Assembly (NCBI RefSeq): GCF_021228235.1 | Contig: NZ_JAJQRG010000008.1 | Location: forward strand, 124,001-188,000 | Length of the DNA: 64,000 nucleotides | Direction: 5' to 3' | Source: Pseudophaeobacter flagellatus | Lineage (GTDB): Bacteria; Pseudomonadota; Alphaproteobacteria; Rhodobacterales; Rhodobacteraceae | Shown: piece by piece, positions 50,369 to 57,837 of the stretch | Layout: each line of letters opens with the position of its first letter | How positions within the stretch are numbered: the first letter of the stretch is position 1 | The notes under the pieces: model-generated | Seen by the model: the letters and a program-made list of their open reading frames with translations, nothing else | Told to the model about the DNA's origin: nothing | Databases searched by the model: none | Position numbers and translations under genes: made by a program

Positions 50369-51106
50369 CTAGCGCCCCCGGTAGGCCAGCAGGTCAGGCA
50401 ACAGGCTGTACAGTTTTATTCCCCAGGAAAAGGGGCGGGGGAAATCGGTGCGAAATCTGCGGGACTGCATGGCGCAGAGGACCCGCTGAGCGGCTGCAGC
50501 CGCTGTCATCAGCATTGGCATTTTGAAAGTGTTCTTGTCGGTCAATCGCGTCTTGATGAAACCTGGGTTTATCAGCCTCACGGTAATGCCACTGCCCTTT
50601 AGATCATGGCGCATGGTTTCGGCCAGGCTGATCAGGGCTGCTTTGCTTGCGCCATAGCCGATGGCATTTGGCAGGCCACGGTAACCGGCCAGTGATCCGA
50701 TCAGGGTAACATCACCATGCCCCTGCGCGACAAAGCGGGGCATGATTTCGCCAAGCACCCGCAGGGCGCCAATGAAATTGACATCTGCCATCTGCAGGGC
50801 GGATTCTGCCTGCCAGTCTTGGGTTGCCATCGGCTCGTAGGCTCCGGCGTTGTAGATCACACCGTCCACAGGCCCCAGTTCAGAACATATGTGGCGTACG
50901 GCCTCTGCATCGGTCACATCCAATGGCAGGGCCCTGGCTTGCGTCAGGTCTTGGATCAGGGCTGCCAATTTATCGGCACTGCGAGCCGACAGCACCAAAC
51001 GCGCCCCGGCCTTATCCATCTGCACTGCCAGTTCGCGCCCCAAGCCCTCGCTGGCACCCACCAACCAATATGTTTTTCCTGCCAGTGACATGCTTGCCCT
51101 ATTCAT
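50369..51106 (-). CDS. Short-chain dehydrogenase/reductase in the RpoE-ChrR island
   Basis: A 245-residue SDR. The NAD(P) motif is GASEGLGRELAVQM, the NAG motif is YNAGAYEP, and the active site is SLAGYRGLPNAIGYGASKAAL (Ser, Tyr-x3-Lys). Its start overlaps the end of the DUF1365 gene, so both are made from the DUF1365 promoter with its RpoE-type sequence. ATG 51106 and 51091 are both possible. A role in lipid modification under singlet-oxygen stress is inferred from context. Confidence 0.85.
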   Translation of the reverse strand: MNRASMSLAGKTYWLVGASEGLGRELAVQMDKAGARLVLSARSADKLAALIQDLTQARALPLDVTDAEAVRHICSELGPVDGVIYNAGAYEPMATQDWQAESALQMADVNFIGALRVLGEIMPRFVAQGHGDVTLIGSLAGYRGLPNAIGYGASKAALISLAETMRHDLKGSGITVRLINPGFIKTRLTDKNTFKMPMLMTAAAAAQRVLCAMQSRRFRTDFPRPFSWGIKLYSLLPDLLAYRGR

Positions 51107-51863
51107 CCAGATTTTTGCTGGGTGTCATTGGTGACAGCCCGGGGGGCGGTGTTTTCACAAACGGGGCCCGTTTCAGATATAGGATCAGGGCCTGCCAATA
51201 GATCAGGAAAACCACGCGAGCCGCCCCAAAGGGGCGCCGTAACGCGGCCCAAAGCAGTGAGCGATCCGTTGCGGGTTGGCGTTTACCCGACAAGGTCGCC
51301 AGCACCCCCTGGTCACCATTTTGATAGTGGATGCGGACATTCAACTGGTCTTTGGTAAAGCCAAAGTTGAATCGGTATTCGCCTGCAACCTGCTGGAAGG
51401 GCGAGACATGCATCGCTTTGCGGGCGCAGAGCACCTGTTCAAATGTGATGGGGGTAAACCCCTCGTGGGCGCAGAAATAGCAGTGTCGGTGACCAAATGT
51501 ATTGTTCACCTCGGCCACAAAGGCACATACATTTTCGTCAACAAGGGCGACCCAGAAACTGACCGGATTGAATTGAAATCCCATGAAGCTCGGCTGGGTA
51601 ATCAACAGCAGCTGCGCTTGGTCTAGGGGGAAGTCGTGTTCCGCCAGCACTTGGCGAAACCAGTTGACACCGCGGCCCTGGCCACGCGGACCACCGTGGT
51701 GGCGATCCCACAAAGACCATAGATTCAAGCGATTGTGCGACAGCAGGCGTACAGGCAGGCGTGCAGACAGGTCGCTCACGACAAAATCAACGCCATAGTG
51801 AAAGGCGTTGTGCAGCGCGCCACGGCGGCGGTGAAATGTCCTGGCCTGAATGTGATCAATCAT
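51099..51863 (-). CDS. DUF1365 family protein
   Basis: A 254-residue protein with the DUF1365 pattern: ARTFHRRRGALHNAFHYGVDFVV, QPSFMGFQFNPVSFWV and EVNNTFGHRHCYF, then HVSPFQQVAGEYRFNF. The histidines near the N-terminus and the NPVS block are the conserved core. The function is not established; the family is repeatedly found beside FAD oxidoreductases and cyclopropane-fatty-acid-synthase-like enzymes, exactly as here across the divergent promoter. Confidence 0.85.
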   Translation of the reverse strand: MIDHIQARTFHRRRGALHNAFHYGVDFVVSDLSARLPVRLLSHNRLNLWSLWDRHHGGPRGQGRGVNWFRQVLAEHDFPLDQAQLLLITQPSFMGFQFNPVSFWVALVDENVCAFVAEVNNTFGHRHCYFCAHEGFTPITFEQVLCARKAMHVSPFQQVAGEYRFNFGFTKDQLNVRIHYQNGDQGVLATLSGKRQPATDRSLLWAALRRPFGAARVVFLIYWQALILYLKRAPFVKTPPPGLSPMTPSKNLDE

Positions 51864-51867
51864 ACAA

Positions 51868-51897
51868 TGTCTACGTGTTCTGGTTCGTCACGGATCA
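51868..51897 (-). promoter_or_regulatory. RpoE (ChrR-type sigma-E) promoter for DUF1365-SDR
   Basis: On the minus strand TGATCC (51892-51897) and TAGACA (51868-51873) are exactly 18 bases apart. TGATCC is the -35 element of RpoE promoters in Rhodobacter. Two more sites of the same build are in this island. Confidence 0.8.
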
Positions 51898-51925
51898 CTC
51901 TTTTTGGCATCTGCAAAAGAAAATC

Positions 51926-51955
51926 TGATCCGTTTTCCCACCACCACCGTAACAC
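51926..51955 (+). promoter_or_regulatory. RpoE (ChrR-type sigma-E) promoter for the FAD oxidoreductase operon
   Basis: TGATCC (51926-51931) and TAACAC (51950-51955) are 18 bases apart and end 29 bases before the ATG. It is back to back with the DUF1365 promoter. Confidence 0.82.
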
Positions 51956-51984
51956 CCTGAGAACGATAAGCGAATGAGGTAGGC

Positions 51985-53346
51985 ATGCTAGACCAGACAC
52001 GGGGCCCCAGAAAAAGAATTGCGGTCGTCGGCGGGGGGATATCGGGGCTGTCGGCCGCGTACTATCTCTCTGCCTATCATGACGTGACGCTGTTTGAGGC
52101 GGCTGATCGCTTGGGGGGGCATGCAAGAACCGTCTTGGCTGGCAAGAGGGGTGATCAGCCGGTTGATACCGGCTTTATCGTCTTCAATTATGCGACCTAC
52201 CCATATTTGACCCGCTTGTTTCATGATCTGAACGTGCCGGTGATGAAAAGCGATATGAGTTTTGGCGTCAGCATGGACAATGGCGGGTTGGAATATGGGC
52301 TGAACGATCTGCGCTGTATCTTTGCCCAAAAACGCAATCTGGTCCGGCCAGAGTTTTATGGCATGATTTCTGACATCGTGAAGTTCGGCAAGAACGCAGA
52401 AAGGGCCGCGCATCACGATGACATCACGATTGGGGACCTGGTGAAGGAACTGGGGCTGGGTACCTGGTTTAGAGACAAGTATCTTATGCCGATGTGTGGT
52501 GCGATTTGGTCAACACCGGTTAGAGATGTTGATGCTTTCCCGGCTAAATCCCTGGTGCAGTTTTTTCGCAATCATGCCCTGCTGGCTGGAACTGGCAAAC
52601 ACCAATGGTGGACAGTGAAAGGCGGCAGCATTGAATATGTTCGCCGGTTGCAGGCCGCCTTGCTGGCGCGGGGTTGTACTCTGCGCACAAGTGCCCCGGT
52701 ACGGGCGGTTCAACGGTCTGACCTGGGGGTTTCAATTACCTGCGATGGGGCAACGGAGACCGGCTTTGATGAGCTGATCCTTGCATGTCATTCGGATCAG
52801 GCCCTGGCCATTCTGGGGCAGGGGGGCGCAGCGGGTGCGGGGGCTACAGAGGTGGAGGCTCAGGCGCTTGGTGCCATAAGATATCAGCCCAATACCGCTG
52901 TGTTGCACTGCGATGTCACACAGATGCCAAAGCGCCGTGCCTGTTGGTCCAGTTGGACCTACCGCGCCGAGGCAGATAGGGCCAGTGTGACTTATTGGAT
53001 GAATAAATTGCAGGGGATTCCTGAACAAGATCCGTTGTTTGTAACCCTTAATCCGGCAAACTCCATCCAGAAGAACAAGATTTATGATAGGGTGGAGTTT
53101 GCACATCCCGTGTTTGACCGGGCGGCATTGCAGGCCCAACAGACCCTGCGCCGGATACAGGGGCAAAATCGCACCTGGTTTGCCGGGGCCTACAACCGGC
53201 ATGGCTTTCATGAGGACGGCATCGCCAGCGCGATGCGCATTGTGCAGCAAATGACTTCAGTATCGATAGAGAAGGGATCCTATTATGCGCATCACGGACA
53301 AAGCCCTAAAAACGCAATTCCTGTCGATCTGCGAACATCTGCATGA
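51985..53346 (+). CDS. FAD-dependent oxidoreductase, amine-oxidase-like, with CFA-synthase partner
   Basis: A 453-residue flavoprotein. The FAD dinucleotide motif is AVVGGGISGLSAAYYLS, with FEAADRLGGHARTV, and the second FAD region is AGAYNRHGFHEDGIASAMR. Such proteins are the regular partner of CFA-like methyltransferases, and in Rhodobacter sphaeroides the related gene belongs to the RpoE regulon. A role in desaturating or oxidising membrane acyl chains, as in furan-fatty-acid synthesis, is plausible but not shown. Its 3' end overlaps the next gene by 62 bases. Confidence 0.85.
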   Translation: MLDQTRGPRKRIAVVGGGISGLSAAYYLSAYHDVTLFEAADRLGGHARTVLAGKRGDQPVDTGFIVFNYATYPYLTRLFHDLNVPVMKSDMSFGVSMDNGGLEYGLNDLRCIFAQKRNLVRPEFYGMISDIVKFGKNAERAAHHDDITIGDLVKELGLGTWFRDKYLMPMCGAIWSTPVRDVDAFPAKSLVQFFRNHALLAGTGKHQWWTVKGGSIEYVRRLQAALLARGCTLRTSAPVRAVQRSDLGVSITCDGATETGFDELILACHSDQALAILGQGGAAGAGATEVEAQALGAIRYQPNTAVLHCDVTQMPKRRACWSSWTYRAEADRASVTYWMNKLQGIPEQDPLFVTLNPANSIQKNKIYDRVEFAHPVFDRAALQAQQTLRRIQGQNRTWFAGAYNRHGFHEDGIASAMRIVQQMTSVSIEKGSYYAHHGQSPKNAIPVDLRTSA

Positions 53347-54442
53347 GGGGCGGCTAACCCTGCGCACGCCGGATGGTGCGCGCTATGAATTTGGCAACTC
53401 CGGGCCGCAAGCCGAGATGATTATTCGCGACTGGTCGGCAATTTCCGCCATGGCGGCGCATGGTCAGGTCGGTCTGGGGGAAGCTTATGTGCAGGGGTTC
53501 TGGGACACCCCGTCGATAGAGGGGCTGGTGAGCCTGGCTATGCGTAACCGCGACAACCTGGGCGCTTATGACAAGGCGAGCCGCCTAAGCAGCCTGAAGT
53601 ATCGGCTGTTGGATACGGTGCTGCGTGCAAACTCGCGGCGCGGGGCACGTAAGAACATTCGGGCGCACTATGACGTGGGGAATGAATTTTATCAGCTCTG
53701 GTTAGACGAAGGCATGACCTATTCTTCAGGTCTCTTTGCGGCTGGAGCTGACGACCTGGGCACCGCACAGCGCCGCAAGAACAGCCGTGCCCTGTCACGA
53801 TTGAACGATGGCGAACAGGTTCTGGAAGTTGGCTGTGGCTGGGGCGGCTTTGCGGATCACGCCGCCACCGAGGGTCGCAATGTCACCGGTATCACCATCT
53901 CACGCAATCAGCACAGCTATGCGGAATGTCGCCTGGATGGACGGGCTGAAATCCAACTGCGGGATTATCGCGATGTGCATGGACGCTATGACAACATCGT
54001 TTCTATCGAGATGATCGAAGCCGTCGGCGCCCGTTACTGGCCGAGCTATTTTTCGATGCTAAAGCGCAACCTGGCCGAAGATGGCCGGGTCTTGTTGCAG
54101 GCGATCACGGTTCAGGACAGCTTCTTTGGAGCCTACAAGAGTTCGTCTGACTATATTCGCCAGTATGTTTTTCCCGGTGGGATGTTGCTTTCGGACAGCG
54201 TGATCGCTGCGCAGGCGCAGCAGGCGGGGCTGCGGGTGCGGGACAGTTTTGCCTTTGGTGAGGACTATGCACGCACCTGCCGCATCTGGGCAAAGCGCTT
54301 GGTTGCGCAGCGCGCGCGTATTCTGAATATGGGGTATTCCAACAGCTTCTTTCGCAATTGGCAGTATTATCTGGAGATCTGCGCCGCCTCTTTTGCCATC
54401 GGCCATACCAATGTTGTGCAGGTGGAACTCGACCATGCATAG
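53285..54442 (+). CDS. Cyclopropane-fatty-acid-synthase-like SAM methyltransferase
   Basis: A 385-residue enzyme. The CFAS landmarks are NIRAHYDVGNEFYQLWLDEGMTYSSG, SAM motif I LEVGCGWGGFADHA, and the motif SIEMIEAVG with the bicarbonate-region Glu. It methylates double bonds of phospholipid acyl chains using SAM, giving cyclopropane or methylated products. AAGGGA precedes the ATG, which lies inside the FAD gene. It is under the RpoE-type promoter at 51926. Confidence 0.9.
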   Translation: MRITDKALKTQFLSICEHLHEGRLTLRTPDGARYEFGNSGPQAEMIIRDWSAISAMAAHGQVGLGEAYVQGFWDTPSIEGLVSLAMRNRDNLGAYDKASRLSSLKYRLLDTVLRANSRRGARKNIRAHYDVGNEFYQLWLDEGMTYSSGLFAAGADDLGTAQRRKNSRALSRLNDGEQVLEVGCGWGGFADHAATEGRNVTGITISRNQHSYAECRLDGRAEIQLRDYRDVHGRYDNIVSIEMIEAVGARYWPSYFSMLKRNLAEDGRVLLQAITVQDSFFGAYKSSSDYIRQYVFPGGMLLSDSVIAAQAQQAGLRVRDSFAFGEDYARTCRIWAKRLVAQRARILNMGYSNSFFRNWQYYLEICAASFAIGHTNVVQVELDHA

Positions 54443-54556
54443 GGTTTGGGGCAGAACGCGCCTGTGCTCTGCCCTGCAAGTCGGGCGCGGTATGCATCCT
54501 GCCTTTCGGCAGCGGTGGCAGCCTGAGGCTTTGGCTGGCGTTACTCGTGGGCTTGC

Positions 54557-55834
54557 ATGTCAGAACAGCGGGGCATGCCGTTGACGCGCGAACCGCTGAG
54601 CCAGAGCCTGCTCTACCCGCGCGTCAGCCTCTATGCCCTGATGTTGGCCGCAGCGGGTATTCCGCTTTACATCCATTTGCCGCGGTTTGCTTCGGTCAAT
54701 CTGGAGATTGGCCTGGGCACTGTTGGCGTGATCCTGATGGGGATCAGGCTGATTGATCTGGTGCAGGACCCATTGATCGGATGGGTACTGGATCGTTGGG
54801 CGCGGGCGCAGCGGGTCTTTGCGGCTGCGGCGGCTCTTGGCTTGGCTTTTGGGTTCCCTGCTCTGTTCATGCTGCAACCCGGCGAAGGTATCACGCTTCG
54901 GCTGACGCTGGTTCTGGTTCTGCTGTTTTCCGCCTACAGCCTGGGCATGATCCTGCTTTATGGCCGCAGTGCGATGCTGGCCAAACAGGCAACCACTGCC
55001 GAGATCACCCGCATGGCGGCCTATCGTGAAGGCGGGATGCTGCTGGGGGTGGTTCTGGTGGCGATTGCGCCGACGCTCCTTGCCTTGCTTGGGGCGTCGG
55101 CGCAGGGCTATCCGGCGCTGGGATGGGGCCTTGGCGCTCTGGCGCTGATGACGGCGGTCCTGGCGCGTAGTATCTGGCGACGTCCGGTGCAGCTTGGCAC
55201 CGCCTTGAACCTGCAAGGCTTGGCCACGTCCGGTGCCGCCCGCCTGTTGCTTCTGGCGCTGATCAACAGCCTGCCTGTTGCAATCACATCGACGCTGTTT
55301 TTGTTTTTTGTTGAAGACAGGCTTGATCTCGCAGGCCAGTCGGGCTTTTTGCTGCTGCTCTTCTTTGCGTCTGCGGGCTTGTCTGTCCCTCTCTGGGCCC
55401 GGGTCAGCCGCCAGCTTGGCCCGCGCAACACCCTGTTGATTGCGATGCCGCTGGCGGTTTGTGCCTTTGTCGGCGCAGCCTTTCTTGCCCCCGGCAACCT
55501 GATTGGATTTGCCATCATCTGCCTGGCTTCGGGTGTCGCATTGGGCGCCGATATGGTGATCCTGCCGGTGATGTTTTCCATGGCCCTAGTGCGGGCAAAT
55601 TTAAGGGCATCAACGGCCTTTGGGATCTGGTCTTTTGCCGGCAAGCTGGGGCTGGCCCTGGCGGCCTTTCTGGTGCTGCCCGCCCTGCAATTGAGCGGGT
55701 TTGAACCCGGAGCGGAAAACACGCCGCGGGCGCTTGCTACCCTGAACGGAGCCTATGCGATTTTGCCCTGCCTTCTGAAACTGGCCGCAATTGGCTTGGC
55801 CATGACCCTTCCGACAGAGGATACCGTGACATGA
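54557..55834 (+). CDS. MFS transporter (GPH/MelB-like) in the RpoE-ChrR island
   Basis: A 425-residue protein with about twelve hydrophobic helices. LIDLVQDPLIGWVLDRWA is the MelB/GPH-type helix 2-3 motif with its acidic residue and basic loop. The ligand is unknown. No good ribosome site is seen before ATG 54557 or ATG 54575, so the start is uncertain. A 114-base gap with no recognisable gene separates it from the methyltransferase gene. Its stop overlaps the DUF3833 start by 4 bases. Confidence 0.8.
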   Translation: MSEQRGMPLTREPLSQSLLYPRVSLYALMLAAAGIPLYIHLPRFASVNLEIGLGTVGVILMGIRLIDLVQDPLIGWVLDRWARAQRVFAAAAALGLAFGFPALFMLQPGEGITLRLTLVLVLLFSAYSLGMILLYGRSAMLAKQATTAEITRMAAYREGGMLLGVVLVAIAPTLLALLGASAQGYPALGWGLGALALMTAVLARSIWRRPVQLGTALNLQGLATSGAARLLLLALINSLPVAITSTLFLFFVEDRLDLAGQSGFLLLLFFASAGLSVPLWARVSRQLGPRNTLLIAMPLAVCAFVGAAFLAPGNLIGFAIICLASGVALGADMVILPVMFSMALVRANLRASTAFGIWSFAGKLGLALAAFLVLPALQLSGFEPGAENTPRALATLNGAYAILPCLLKLAAIGLAMTLPTEDTVT

Positions 55835-56373
55835 AAATCCTGACCACCATTCTGGTACTTGTACTGCTGTTGATTCTGGCGCGAGATCGGTTCTTCAGCT
55901 TTCGTGCGCAAAGCCCTGCAGACTACAAAGACAGCGGTCCCGGCTTTGTCTTGCAAGAGCATCTCTCTGGTCGCCTGCAGTCAGAGGGGCTTATCTTTGG
56001 ACCCAAGGGGAAGGTGACCAATAGTTTTGTCGCAGAGATGGTGGGAGAATGGGACGGTGATACCGGAACGCTGACAGAAAACTTCACCTATTCGAACGGT
56101 AAAACACAGCAGCGGAAATGGTATCTGCAGATGGACAGCGCCTCTACCTTTACCGCCACTGCGGATGACATCGTCGGAGAGGGAAAAGGCGTCATCTCTG
56201 GGTCAACCATCAAGTTGAGCTATTTGATCACCCTGCCGGAAGAGTCGGGCGGCCATACCCTGACGGCGACGGACTGGATGTATTTGACTGAGAATGGCGT
56301 CATCATAAACAAGTCTGAAATGCGGAAATACGGGATCAAAGTTGCCGAACTTCTGGCCACGATGCACCGCTGA
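55831..56373 (+). CDS. DUF3833 family protein
   Basis: A 180-residue protein with an N-terminal membrane anchor (TTILVLVLLLILARDRFF) and a calycin-like beta domain: FGPKGKVTNSFVAEMVGEWD, FTYSNGKTQQRKWYLQ and TATDWMYLTENGVIINKSEMRKYG. The family is of unknown function and regularly travels with CFA-synthase-like and DUF1365 genes, which suggests a periplasmic or lipid-handling role. It is the last gene of the plus-strand operon and converges with chrR. Confidence 0.82.
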   Translation: MKILTTILVLVLLLILARDRFFSFRAQSPADYKDSGPGFVLQEHLSGRLQSEGLIFGPKGKVTNSFVAEMVGEWDGDTGTLTENFTYSNGKTQQRKWYLQMDSASTFTATADDIVGEGKGVISGSTIKLSYLITLPEESGGHTLTATDWMYLTENGVIINKSEMRKYGIKVAELLATMHR

Positions 56374-56538
56374 TCATTGGATCTTTGGCGGGCACCGCAG
56401 TCTGGGGCGCGGGTGAATGAACCTGTTTGCCGGGGTGTTTGTGCCCCATGAAGGCTGCCCTGACGCTGCCCTAACGCGGCGCTCATGTGGCAGGGTTTCC
56501 GCCCGAGACCCGGCCGTGATTGCACAGGGGCAGGTGTC

Positions 56539-57174
56539 CTAGATCCGAAATAGAGGTTGCAGCAGGCGTGGTAACAGCGCTTTGAAGCGCAGCGGCGCAT
56601 CTGTCGCGGCAAGGCAAATGCAGGGGTCACCTGCATCGGCGGTTGGCGTGTGGTTGAGGTCTTCATCGCCGACCTCGACGTCGCCAATGCCAAAACGTCC
56701 GGTGCTATCGCTGAAACTACCTTGCAGCACCATTGTGAGCTCCAATCCGTTGTGGCTGTGGTCTGGCATCGCTTGCCCTGCTGGGATGAACAGCAAGCGC
56801 GCATTTGATTCGGCATCAGCCGTCAGGATGGTCTGGCGAACCCCCATGCCCAGAGCTTTCCATTTGGGCTGTTGCCCCTGCAGTGCCGCCACTACGGGAC
56901 CGGGATAGATGCCGGAGCGGTCATAGTGAGGTTCGGCCCTGACCGGTGCGTCCAATTGTGCCAAGACGCTGGCGCGCAACCCGCTGGACAGAGGGCTTGT
57001 ACTGGCGGTTTCCAGGATGGCCCCGCCGACGGCCTGATGGGCAGCAAGAGAGGCGCGACAGTCATTACACATGGAAACGTGGCTGGCCACGACCACGGCA
57101 AAGGCATGCGGCAGGCTGCCCGCAGCATAGGATGCGAGCAAATGATCAGGGATATGATGGGTAATTGCGGTCAT
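56539..57174 (-). CDS. chrR: Anti-sigma factor ChrR
   Basis: A 211-residue zinc anti-sigma factor. The N-terminal ZAS domain has HVSMCNDC (His-x3-Cys-x2-Cys) and binds RpoE. The C-terminal cupin has HSHNGLELTMVLQG with the metal-binding His and Glu and a late His in LNHTPTADAG. Singlet oxygen makes ChrR release the sigma factor in Rhodobacter sphaeroides. It overlaps rpoE by 4 bases, so the pair is made in fixed ratio. Confidence 0.93.
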   Translation of the reverse strand: MTAITHHIPDHLLASYAAGSLPHAFAVVVASHVSMCNDCRASLAAHQAVGGAILETASTSPLSSGLRASVLAQLDAPVRAEPHYDRSGIYPGPVVAALQGQQPKWKALGMGVRQTILTADAESNARLLFIPAGQAMPDHSHNGLELTMVLQGSFSDSTGRFGIGDVEVGDEDLNHTPTADAGDPCICLAATDAPLRFKALLPRLLQPLFRI

Positions 57175-57731
57175 GTGCGCAGCCCCTTTAGGTCATGTCT
57201 CAGCCGTTCAAGGCCAAGACGAATTCTTGATTTGATGGTCCCGAGCGGCAGCCCCGTCTGCGTTTGGATCTCTTGATGGGTCAGCTCACCCAGATAGGCT
57301 TTTTCGACAATTATCCTTTGATCTGCGCTCAGACGTTGAAGCGCCTGCTTCAGGTGTTCGCTTTCCTGCTCTATCGCCAGGATCTGGCTGGCATCGGCCT
57401 CAGCGCCAGGGTCTTCCTTCAGTTCTTCAGGCACCGGCCTGGCCTCTTTGCGGGCTATGTCGATTTGCCGGTGTCTGGCAATTTGATAGATCCAGGCGGA
57501 AACCTGGGCGCGATGCGGGTCGAATTGCTCGGCCTTACGCCACACCGTCAGCATCACATCCTGAATCACTTCCTCGGCCTGGGCAGCAGGGGTGCCACCG
57601 CGGATGACAAACCCTTTCAGGCGCGGTGCAAAGTGATCGAACAAGGCAGCAAAGGCCGCCCTGTCCCTATCGATCTTCACCCTCAGCATCCATTTGGTTT
57701 GCTCAGAATAGTTGCTTTGCAATTTCGACAC
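57171..57731 (-). CDS. rpoE: Group IV (ECF) sigma factor RpoE, ChrR-controlled
   Basis: A 186-residue ECF sigma factor. Region 2 has EEVIQDVMLTVWRKAEQFDP and WIYQIARHRQIDIARK; region 4 has LTHQEIQTQTGLPLGTIKSRI. It directs polymerase to TGATCC-type promoters. GTG 57731 with AAGG upstream is favoured because the promoter's -10 (57808-57813) overlaps the upstream ATG codons near 57809, leaving no leader there. Confidence 0.92.
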   Translation of the reverse strand: MSKLQSNYSEQTKWMLRVKIDRDRAAFAALFDHFAPRLKGFVIRGGTPAAQAEEVIQDVMLTVWRKAEQFDPHRAQVSAWIYQIARHRQIDIARKEARPVPEELKEDPGAEADASQILAIEQESEHLKQALQRLSADQRIIVEKAYLGELTHQEIQTQTGLPLGTIKSRIRLGLERLRHDLKGLRT

Positions 57732-57807
57732 GTCTTTGCCTTCATGGCGAGGCCGCCCGTGAAGAGCGCGCCTGCGAGAGATATCAATGTCGAATGTCAT
57801 CATACCC

Positions 57808-57837
57808 AATCTACGAAGGCCACATCTTTTTGGATCA
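57808..57837 (-). promoter_or_regulatory. RpoE promoter for rpoE-chrR (autoregulation)
   Basis: On the minus strand TGATCC (57832-57837) and TAGATT (57808-57813) are 18 bases apart. This gives positive feedback on rpoE once ChrR is inactivated. Confidence 0.82.

Follow-up and report, generated by a model that had tools for sequence, protein, structure and literature searches.

The sigma-E/ChrR pair is a paradigm of singlet oxygen sensing, and the degradation of ChrR and the tuning of the response are still being worked out (PMC6852236). Others have established that in Rhodobacter sphaeroides singlet oxygen leads to proteolysis of ChrR, and that sigma-E, once released, directs transcription of the operon that encodes it and of the ufa genes. 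The core regulon comprises about eight genes, including rpoE-chrR and the furan fatty acid genes, and the latter are required for ChrR turnover (PMC6852236). The products UfaD (RSP_1091), UfaO (RSP_1090) and UfaM (RSP2144) make methylated furan fatty acid, and RSP1087-1089 are dispensable for its synthesis (PMC7380195). The ufaD/ufaO operon is a member of the RpoE regulon, and its homologues are often located near rpoE-chrR in alphaproteobacteria (PMC3818230). RSP_1087 is a short-chain dehydrogenase/reductase (SDR) and RSP_1089 a symporter of the GPH family (PMC7074977). Here we analyzed a stretch of 64,000 nucleotides from Pseudophaeobacter flagellatus (contig NZ_JAJQRG010000008.1, positions 124,001 to 188,000; hereafter the window). 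As a preliminary description of this DNA had stated, it carries rpoE together with chrR, and two operons of lipid genes whose promoters are of the same type as that of rpoE-chrR. That finding is correct and in substance already known. The apparently new part is an rpoE gene that appears to have two starts, the upper one apparently leaderless, and this prediction is strongly supported by the comparison of relatives.

Arrangements of this kind have been described in two other systems. Streptomyces SigR/SigR'-RsrA likewise consists of an extracytoplasmic function (ECF) sigma factor and a zinc anti-sigma factor, with an autoregulatory promoter upstream of the ATG for the extended form and a short form from a non-ATG start (PMC5472188, PMC4921905). 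The promoter, p2, directs synthesis of the longer SigR', whose 58-residue extension turns it into a Clp substrate; the start codon of SigR is GTC (PMC5472188). In contrast to the window case, which is a prediction from sequence, SigR' is documented as a Clp substrate with 55-58 extra residues, and SigR has its own promoter (PMC4921905, PMC5472188). In Mycobacterium tuberculosis, transcription of sigE from the SigE-driven P2 promoter produces a leaderless mRNA, and internal starts give rise to isoforms; the difference is that a separate, sigma-H-dependent promoter within the gene supplies the short forms (PMC10027907). Among the matches listed in our search of the open literature, no leaderless or extended rpoE of the ECF11 group was found; a mapped rpoE start in the original R. 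sphaeroides papers could change this novelty.

The promoters and the rpoE frames of the window are as follows.

57812..57837, minus strand: sigma-E promoter of rpoE-chrR (-35 at 57837-57832, CGTA at 57815-57812)
57171..57803, minus strand: rpoE, long frame, ATG at the predicted +1, 210 amino acids
57732..57803, minus strand: 24-codon N-terminal extension of rpoE, upstream of the internal start
57171..57731, minus strand: rpoE, short frame from an internal GTG preceded by GAAGG
51872..51897, minus strand: sigma-E promoter of the ufaO homologue (-35 TGATCC at 51897-51892, CGTA at 51875-51872)
51926..51951, plus strand: sigma-E promoter of the ufaD homologue (-35 at 51926-51931, CGTA at 51948-51951)

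At two of the three promoters, those of rpoE and ufaO, a start codon lies at the predicted transcription start, a feature that the preliminary description had overlooked. The ATG of rpoE (57803) and that of ufaO (51863) are each located eight bases past the TA. When the T of TA is taken as -10, the A of an ATG at this offset is +1.

To the window and its relatives (40 loci) we added 80 loci of named genomes (the best 80 of 590 matches to R. sphaeroides RpoE) and 30 loci of the family (the best 30 of 313 matching genomes among 394 searched). Species may be shared between the sets, and only exact copies (6) were dropped, giving 144 distinct loci at the family level. The rpoE promoter was detected in 141 of the 144 Rhodobacteraceae-type loci; the motif was absent in L059, L062 and L107. 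An open in-frame rpoE ATG was found 8, 9 or 11 bases after TA in 137 of the 141 (129, 5 and 3 loci, respectively), so that in these the distance of the AUG from the predicted +1 would be no more than three bases. Among the window and its relatives, 38 of 40 loci have the promoter; the ATG is at +8 in 35 of them, is shifted to 9 or 11 in the remaining three, and is always in frame. The promoter is present in 79 of the 80 named genomes, where an in-frame ATG occurs at +8 in 73 (followed by a stop in one), at +9 in three, at +11 in two and not at all in one. In the family set (promoter in 29 of 30), the ATG is at +8 in 26 loci and at +11 in one, and two loci have no open in-frame ATG. The named genome without an in-frame ATG is that of Luteovulum azotoformans (L080), whose RpoE is 93% identical to that of R. 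sphaeroides. Since R. sphaeroides itself was not among the best matches listed in either search, L080 was used as its stand-in. In the window, rpoE and ufaO have an ATG at the predicted +1, whereas L080 has no rpoE ATG there; its internal GTG is retained.

The ufaD promoters served as a control (n=26). A pyrimidine precedes the predicted +1 in 20 of them and A stands at +1 in 18, but an ATG is found there in only one. For ufaO, an ATG at TA+8 was found in 13 of the 15 loci with the promoter, and these 13 account for most of the 16 ATGs seen at 87 other such promoter sites in these loci. From this comparison, we predict a leaderless message for ufaO in this genus. Two further sites, the second site of L041 and one in L132, carry TGATC[CT]-N16-CGTA followed by an ATG at +8 on the minus strand (oriented), and are candidate leaderless sigma-E targets. 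The second codon of the long rpoE (57800-57798 in the window) has T at its middle position downstream of 104 of the 116 promoters, and ufaO has T there in 13 of 15. Of 96 non-redundant extensions, 83 have Leu, Phe or Met as residue 2. Either leaderless translation or the protein's N-terminus itself may underlie this bias at codon 2.

The extension between the two starts was then compared across 116 loci. A stop interrupts frame 0 in one locus, and the other two frames in 114 and 84 loci. When 15 close pairs were compared without reuse of any locus, 38 of 89 codons with a single change were synonymous against an expectation of 24% (p 1.6e-4). With transitions weighted fourfold the expectation rises to 29% (p 0.003), and p lies between 0.0001 and 0.003 across weightings up to fourfold. 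These results indicate that the extension is coding. They also bear on the explanation in which only the internal GTG, TTG or ATG is used, the ATG at +1 being an initiator feature or an annotation trap and the RNA having an untranslated leader of about 70-150 nucleotides. This explanation agrees with an internal start that is nearly universal and that has a Shine-Dalgarno (SD)-like sequence in about half of the loci, and with the GTG retained at that place by L080, which of the loci examined is nearest to R. sphaeroides. It is also the reading that the authors chose for Bradyrhizobium ecfF, a gene of another ECF group, when a mapped start overlapped the annotated ATG and a downstream start was preferred (PMC3420878). 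However, against it stand the +1 ATG, which is in frame and open in 137 of 141 loci even though anything from 35 to 61 codons separates it from the conserved Trp, the many stops in the other frames, the excess of synonymous changes and the lack of the ATG at the ufaD promoters. We consider exclusive use of the internal start unlikely.

In the window, the internal GTG is at 57731. In 114 of 116 loci, the stretch 5-19 codons upstream of the first conserved Trp contains a start codon, mostly GTG. At -8 to -14, start codons make up 15.8% of codons, compared with 5.4% in the upstream extension and 6.2% in the gene body, and the GTG share of valine codons is 83%, compared with 35% and 55%, respectively. 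Of 113 loci, 63 have an SD-like tetramer ahead of a start, versus 13.8% at body codons; the count of 63 may be too high, since more than one start codon per locus was eligible. All leaderless transcripts of Sinorhizobium are reported to begin with AUG (PMC3616915), in agreement with an AUG at +1 and a predominance of GTG at the internal starts. In the structural model of the long RpoE of the window (mean predicted local distance difference test score, pLDDT, 83.0; predicted template modelling score, pTM, 0.53), residues 1-7 and 9-18 have pLDDT below 50, and the first predicted helix begins at residue 25, which is the internal start. A further possibility is the absence of a short form, in which case the internal GTG would be just a common valine codon and a protein started there would be too short. 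The long frame is indeed open nearly everywhere, but start codons and SD-like tetramers are enriched just at the internal site, predicted order in the window protein begins there, and L080, which has no ATG at +1, keeps the internal GTG. Production of the long form alone thus seems to us improbable, even more so than that of the short form alone. A peptide motif in the extension (DA, then Y or H) was above shuffles but occurred in 20 of the 96 non-redundant extensions, and was rejected as too weak.

Judged by sequence, therefore, the gene has two conserved in-frame starts, the upper of which is tied to the autoregulated promoter, as in the SigR/SigR' type. We regard it as probable that the own promoter of sigma-E directs synthesis of a leaderless mRNA for a long sigma-E, with a short form arising from the internal start. 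The autoregulated rpoE promoter would start the RNA at the A of the AUG. The leaderless mRNA would encode a long sigma-E with a disordered tail, of 24 residues here and up to about 50 elsewhere, and the internal start preceded by an SD sequence (usually GTG) would give the short form from the same RNA or any longer one. Because the AUG directly follows the promoter and leaves no room for a ribosome-binding site, only RNA driven by sigma-E would yield the long form, whose synthesis would thus be confined to the response. By analogy with Streptomyces SigR', the tail would most likely make the induced form short-lived or differently regulated; the instability of the long form is a guess from that analogy.

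Several observations weigh against two starts with a leaderless upper one. Changes at the three codon positions of the extension number 49, 61 and 78 (p 0.03), only a slight excess at the third position, and the extension is variable and weakly constrained. In the remaining four of the 141 loci, the ATG is missing in frame (L080 and L250) or followed by a stop (L253 and L155). Offsets of 9-11 bases would require the RNA start to shift. The downstream start preferred for ecfF, mentioned above, points the same way. In a class-level set, ChrR loci were taken from 289 genomes, of which 148 matched, 100 were over the cut-off and 90 were analyzed. Ten of the 90 had no RpoE match, one was truncated, 18 had no motif and 61 had the motif. 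An open in-frame ATG at 8-11 was present in 32 of the 61, or in 28 of 57 after removal of four loci of the same family, and outside the family +9 (16 loci) was commoner than +8 (6 loci). Outside the family, the feature is common but not general. A wider reading is that the alphaproteobacterial ECF11 sigma-E is a dual-isoform system, in which the tail of a sigma-E' made only under stress limits its lifetime or its binding to ChrR and so acts as a built-in shut-off, the feature being old, nearly fixed in Rhodobacteraceae and lost in the R. sphaeroides lineage. Such a loss would be why the feature went unnoticed. We put this wider reading forward tentatively, as possible but doubtful.

The promoters themselves were as the preliminary description had given them. 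All three sites, 51897-51872 (minus strand), 51926-51951 (plus strand) and 57837-57812 (minus strand), consist of TGATCC, 18 bases and TA, the -10 hexamers TAACAC, TAGACA and TAGATT had been quoted correctly, and the motif is confined to the island, with three matches to TGATCC-N18-TA in the 64-kb window and none outside. By count alone this is modest (3 versus 0.78 expected; 4 of 100 shuffles reach 3), and a looser TGATCC-N17..19-TA gives 4 matches versus 2.58 expected (22 of 100 shuffles). CG precedes TA at all three sites, and when it is required, 3 matches stand against 0.06 expected, with 0 of 100 shuffles. The window contains 85 copies of TGATCC versus 40.5 in dinucleotide shuffles, a twofold excess, so that -35 matches alone mean little there. 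The promoter of R. sphaeroides RpoE is TGATCC(N15)GCGTA, as given in the Pos19 paper (PMC5036791). Its spacing and core are the same as those in the window, which upholds the earlier assignment to the RpoE type; the base preceding CGTA is A, C or T in the window instead of the G of the consensus. The frequency of the looser pattern, which is not rare by itself, would be compatible with chance matches or with promoters of another sigma factor. Against this stand the count of the CGTA form, the presence of this promoter at these same genes in relatives and the identity of spacing and core with the published promoter, and we regard such an origin of the three sites as extremely improbable.

In 116 rpoE promoters, the sixth base is C in 111, the next base is a purine in all 116 and C precedes GTA in 115; the invariance of TGATC and GTA is no result, as both were imposed by the search pattern. 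Positions 2 to 8 after the T of TA show little conservation. Variation of the -10 is thus expected and carries little information; this applies to the differences among the three hexamers, which had been singled out as worth checking. The genome-wide search that had been proposed was run as TGATCC-N16-CGTA on the 4.29-Mb genome and gave six sites, compared with one for the reversed pattern. Three are in the island, one precedes hemH, one precedes folE2 and one (L005) overlaps the 3' end of an open reading frame; the last was set aside as likely chance.

The genes of the island, in addition to rpoE, are as follows.

50369..51106, minus strand: SDR oxidoreductase (PF00106), overlapping the end of the ufaO homologue
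51099..51863, minus strand: ufaO homologue (DUF1365; PF07103, 214 bits), ATG 8 bases after TA, predicted leaderless
51985..53346, plus strand: ufaD homologue (FAD enzyme; PF01593), predicted leader of about 25 nucleotides
53285..54442, plus strand: ufaM-like gene (S-adenosylmethionine-dependent CMAS family; PF02353, 250 bits)
54557..55834, plus strand: MFS/GPH-type transporter (PF13347)
55831..56373, plus strand: DUF3833 protein (PF12915)
56539..57174, minus strand: chrR, zinc anti-sigma factor with cupin domain (TIGR02451, 199.7 bits versus a cut-off of 124.5; 2z2s, E 1.4e-62)

The RpoE of the window contains PF04542 and PF08281 (sigma regions 2 and 4). Its best match in the PDB, and the closest solved structure, is 2q1z_A (E 3.1e-55), the R. 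sphaeroides RpoE from the complex with ChrR. In the alignment with the R. sphaeroides ChrR structure, all eight zinc ligands listed in PMC6852236 are conserved. An ECF sigma factor, an adjacent zinc/cupin ChrR and TGATCC-type promoters at rpoE and the targets are all present, and for the furan fatty acid pathway the CMAS, FAD amine-oxidase-type and DUF1365 families are present in conserved gene order. From these sequence matches, we conclude that the island is the known ECF11 sigma-E/ChrR system, predicted to respond to singlet oxygen and to control putative furan fatty acid genes. The ufa names are based on family matches and gene order. The ufaM-like gene scores 248 bits against PRK11705, under the cut-off of 400 of that model, and its sequence does not separate it from cyclopropane synthase; its frame and that of ufaD overlap by 62 bases (53285-53346).

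The island shares with the R. sphaeroides core regulon (RSP_1087-1091 and ufaM, RSP2144) the sigma factor, the zinc anti-sigma factor, the FAD enzyme, the GPH transporter and the SDR, and in both the furan fatty acid genes lie near rpoE-chrR. The order ufaD-ufaO-MFS-DUF3833-SDR in relatives such as L055 is that of RSP_1091-1087. From gene order, we take RSP_1090 to be the DUF1365 protein and RSP_1088 presumably the DUF3833 protein. Membership of the SDR, MFS, DUF3833 and DUF1365 genes had been named as the point to check: they are present, but the set is not new, since it matches the RSP_1087-1091 operon plus a ufaM-like gene. The published regulon, the ufa genes and the promoter consensus mean that the system, its membership and its promoter were already known. 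Unlike in R. sphaeroides, ufaO-SDR and ufaD-ufaM-MFS-DUF3833 are divergent in the window, with the methylase gene inside and rpoE-chrR beyond DUF3833.

The layout was compared in 40 loci around the DUF1365 homologue, from 39 genomes (100 genomes were examined and 76 matched). The divergent layout was found in 13 of the 40, but in these chrR-rpoE lies beyond the SDR gene instead of DUF3833. Of the other 27 loci, 26 have ufaD and ufaO on the same strand (no ufaD match was obtained in L071), and chrR-rpoE precedes them in 26 of these 27 non-divergent loci, the exception being L054. An own sigma-E promoter at ufaO was present in all 13 divergent loci, and a sigma-E promoter at ufaD in 26 of the 40. 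Thus, the divergent layout is a local rearrangement. One genome (G008) has two copies of the island (L047 and L048), of eight genes each, on separate contigs.

To call the island complete, as had been done, is too strong, because the same promoter also precedes folE2 and hemH elsewhere in the genome. TGATCC-N16-CGTA was found before folE2 (L006:1501-1526) and before hemH (L004:1501-1526, with hemH at L004:1610), both genes being named by family models. folE2 is a known RpoE target (PMC7074977). Within the genus, 9 of 12 folE2 loci have the form TGATC[CT]...CGTA upstream of the gene; outside it, 9 of 18 do, with a spacing of 17 bases in one case (30 of 33 matches; relatives L310-L339). In the case of hemH, this promoter was detected in 10 of 11 loci of the genus (relatives L280-L290) and in 0 of 19 others (30 of 43 matches). 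hemH was sought as a target in the available portions of PMC7074977, PMC3688512, PMC10673084, PMC5036791 and PMC3818230 and was not found there; in R. capsulatus, cbiX, a putative ferrochelatase, is induced instead (PMC7074977). The hemH promoter appears to be a recruit specific to this genus, which could remove a photosensitizer. The photolyase locus and three rpoH-family loci of the own genome, which one would expect in the regulon, were scanned for TGATC[CT]-N17..19-TA; this gave two matches, neither of them upstream of the photolyase or rpoH-family gene itself.

The hemH promoter suggests a simple defence in the genus, in which protoporphyrin, a photosensitizer, would be consumed when singlet oxygen rises. 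As for the two starts of rpoE, the start sites of rpoE and ufaO would, if the proposal is true, be fixed for annotation and for the design of reporters. The long form would be an independent parallel to Streptomyces SigR' in another system with a zinc anti-sigma factor. If it holds for nearly all relatives, the feedback loop of sigma-E has a part that the work on R. sphaeroides may not show.

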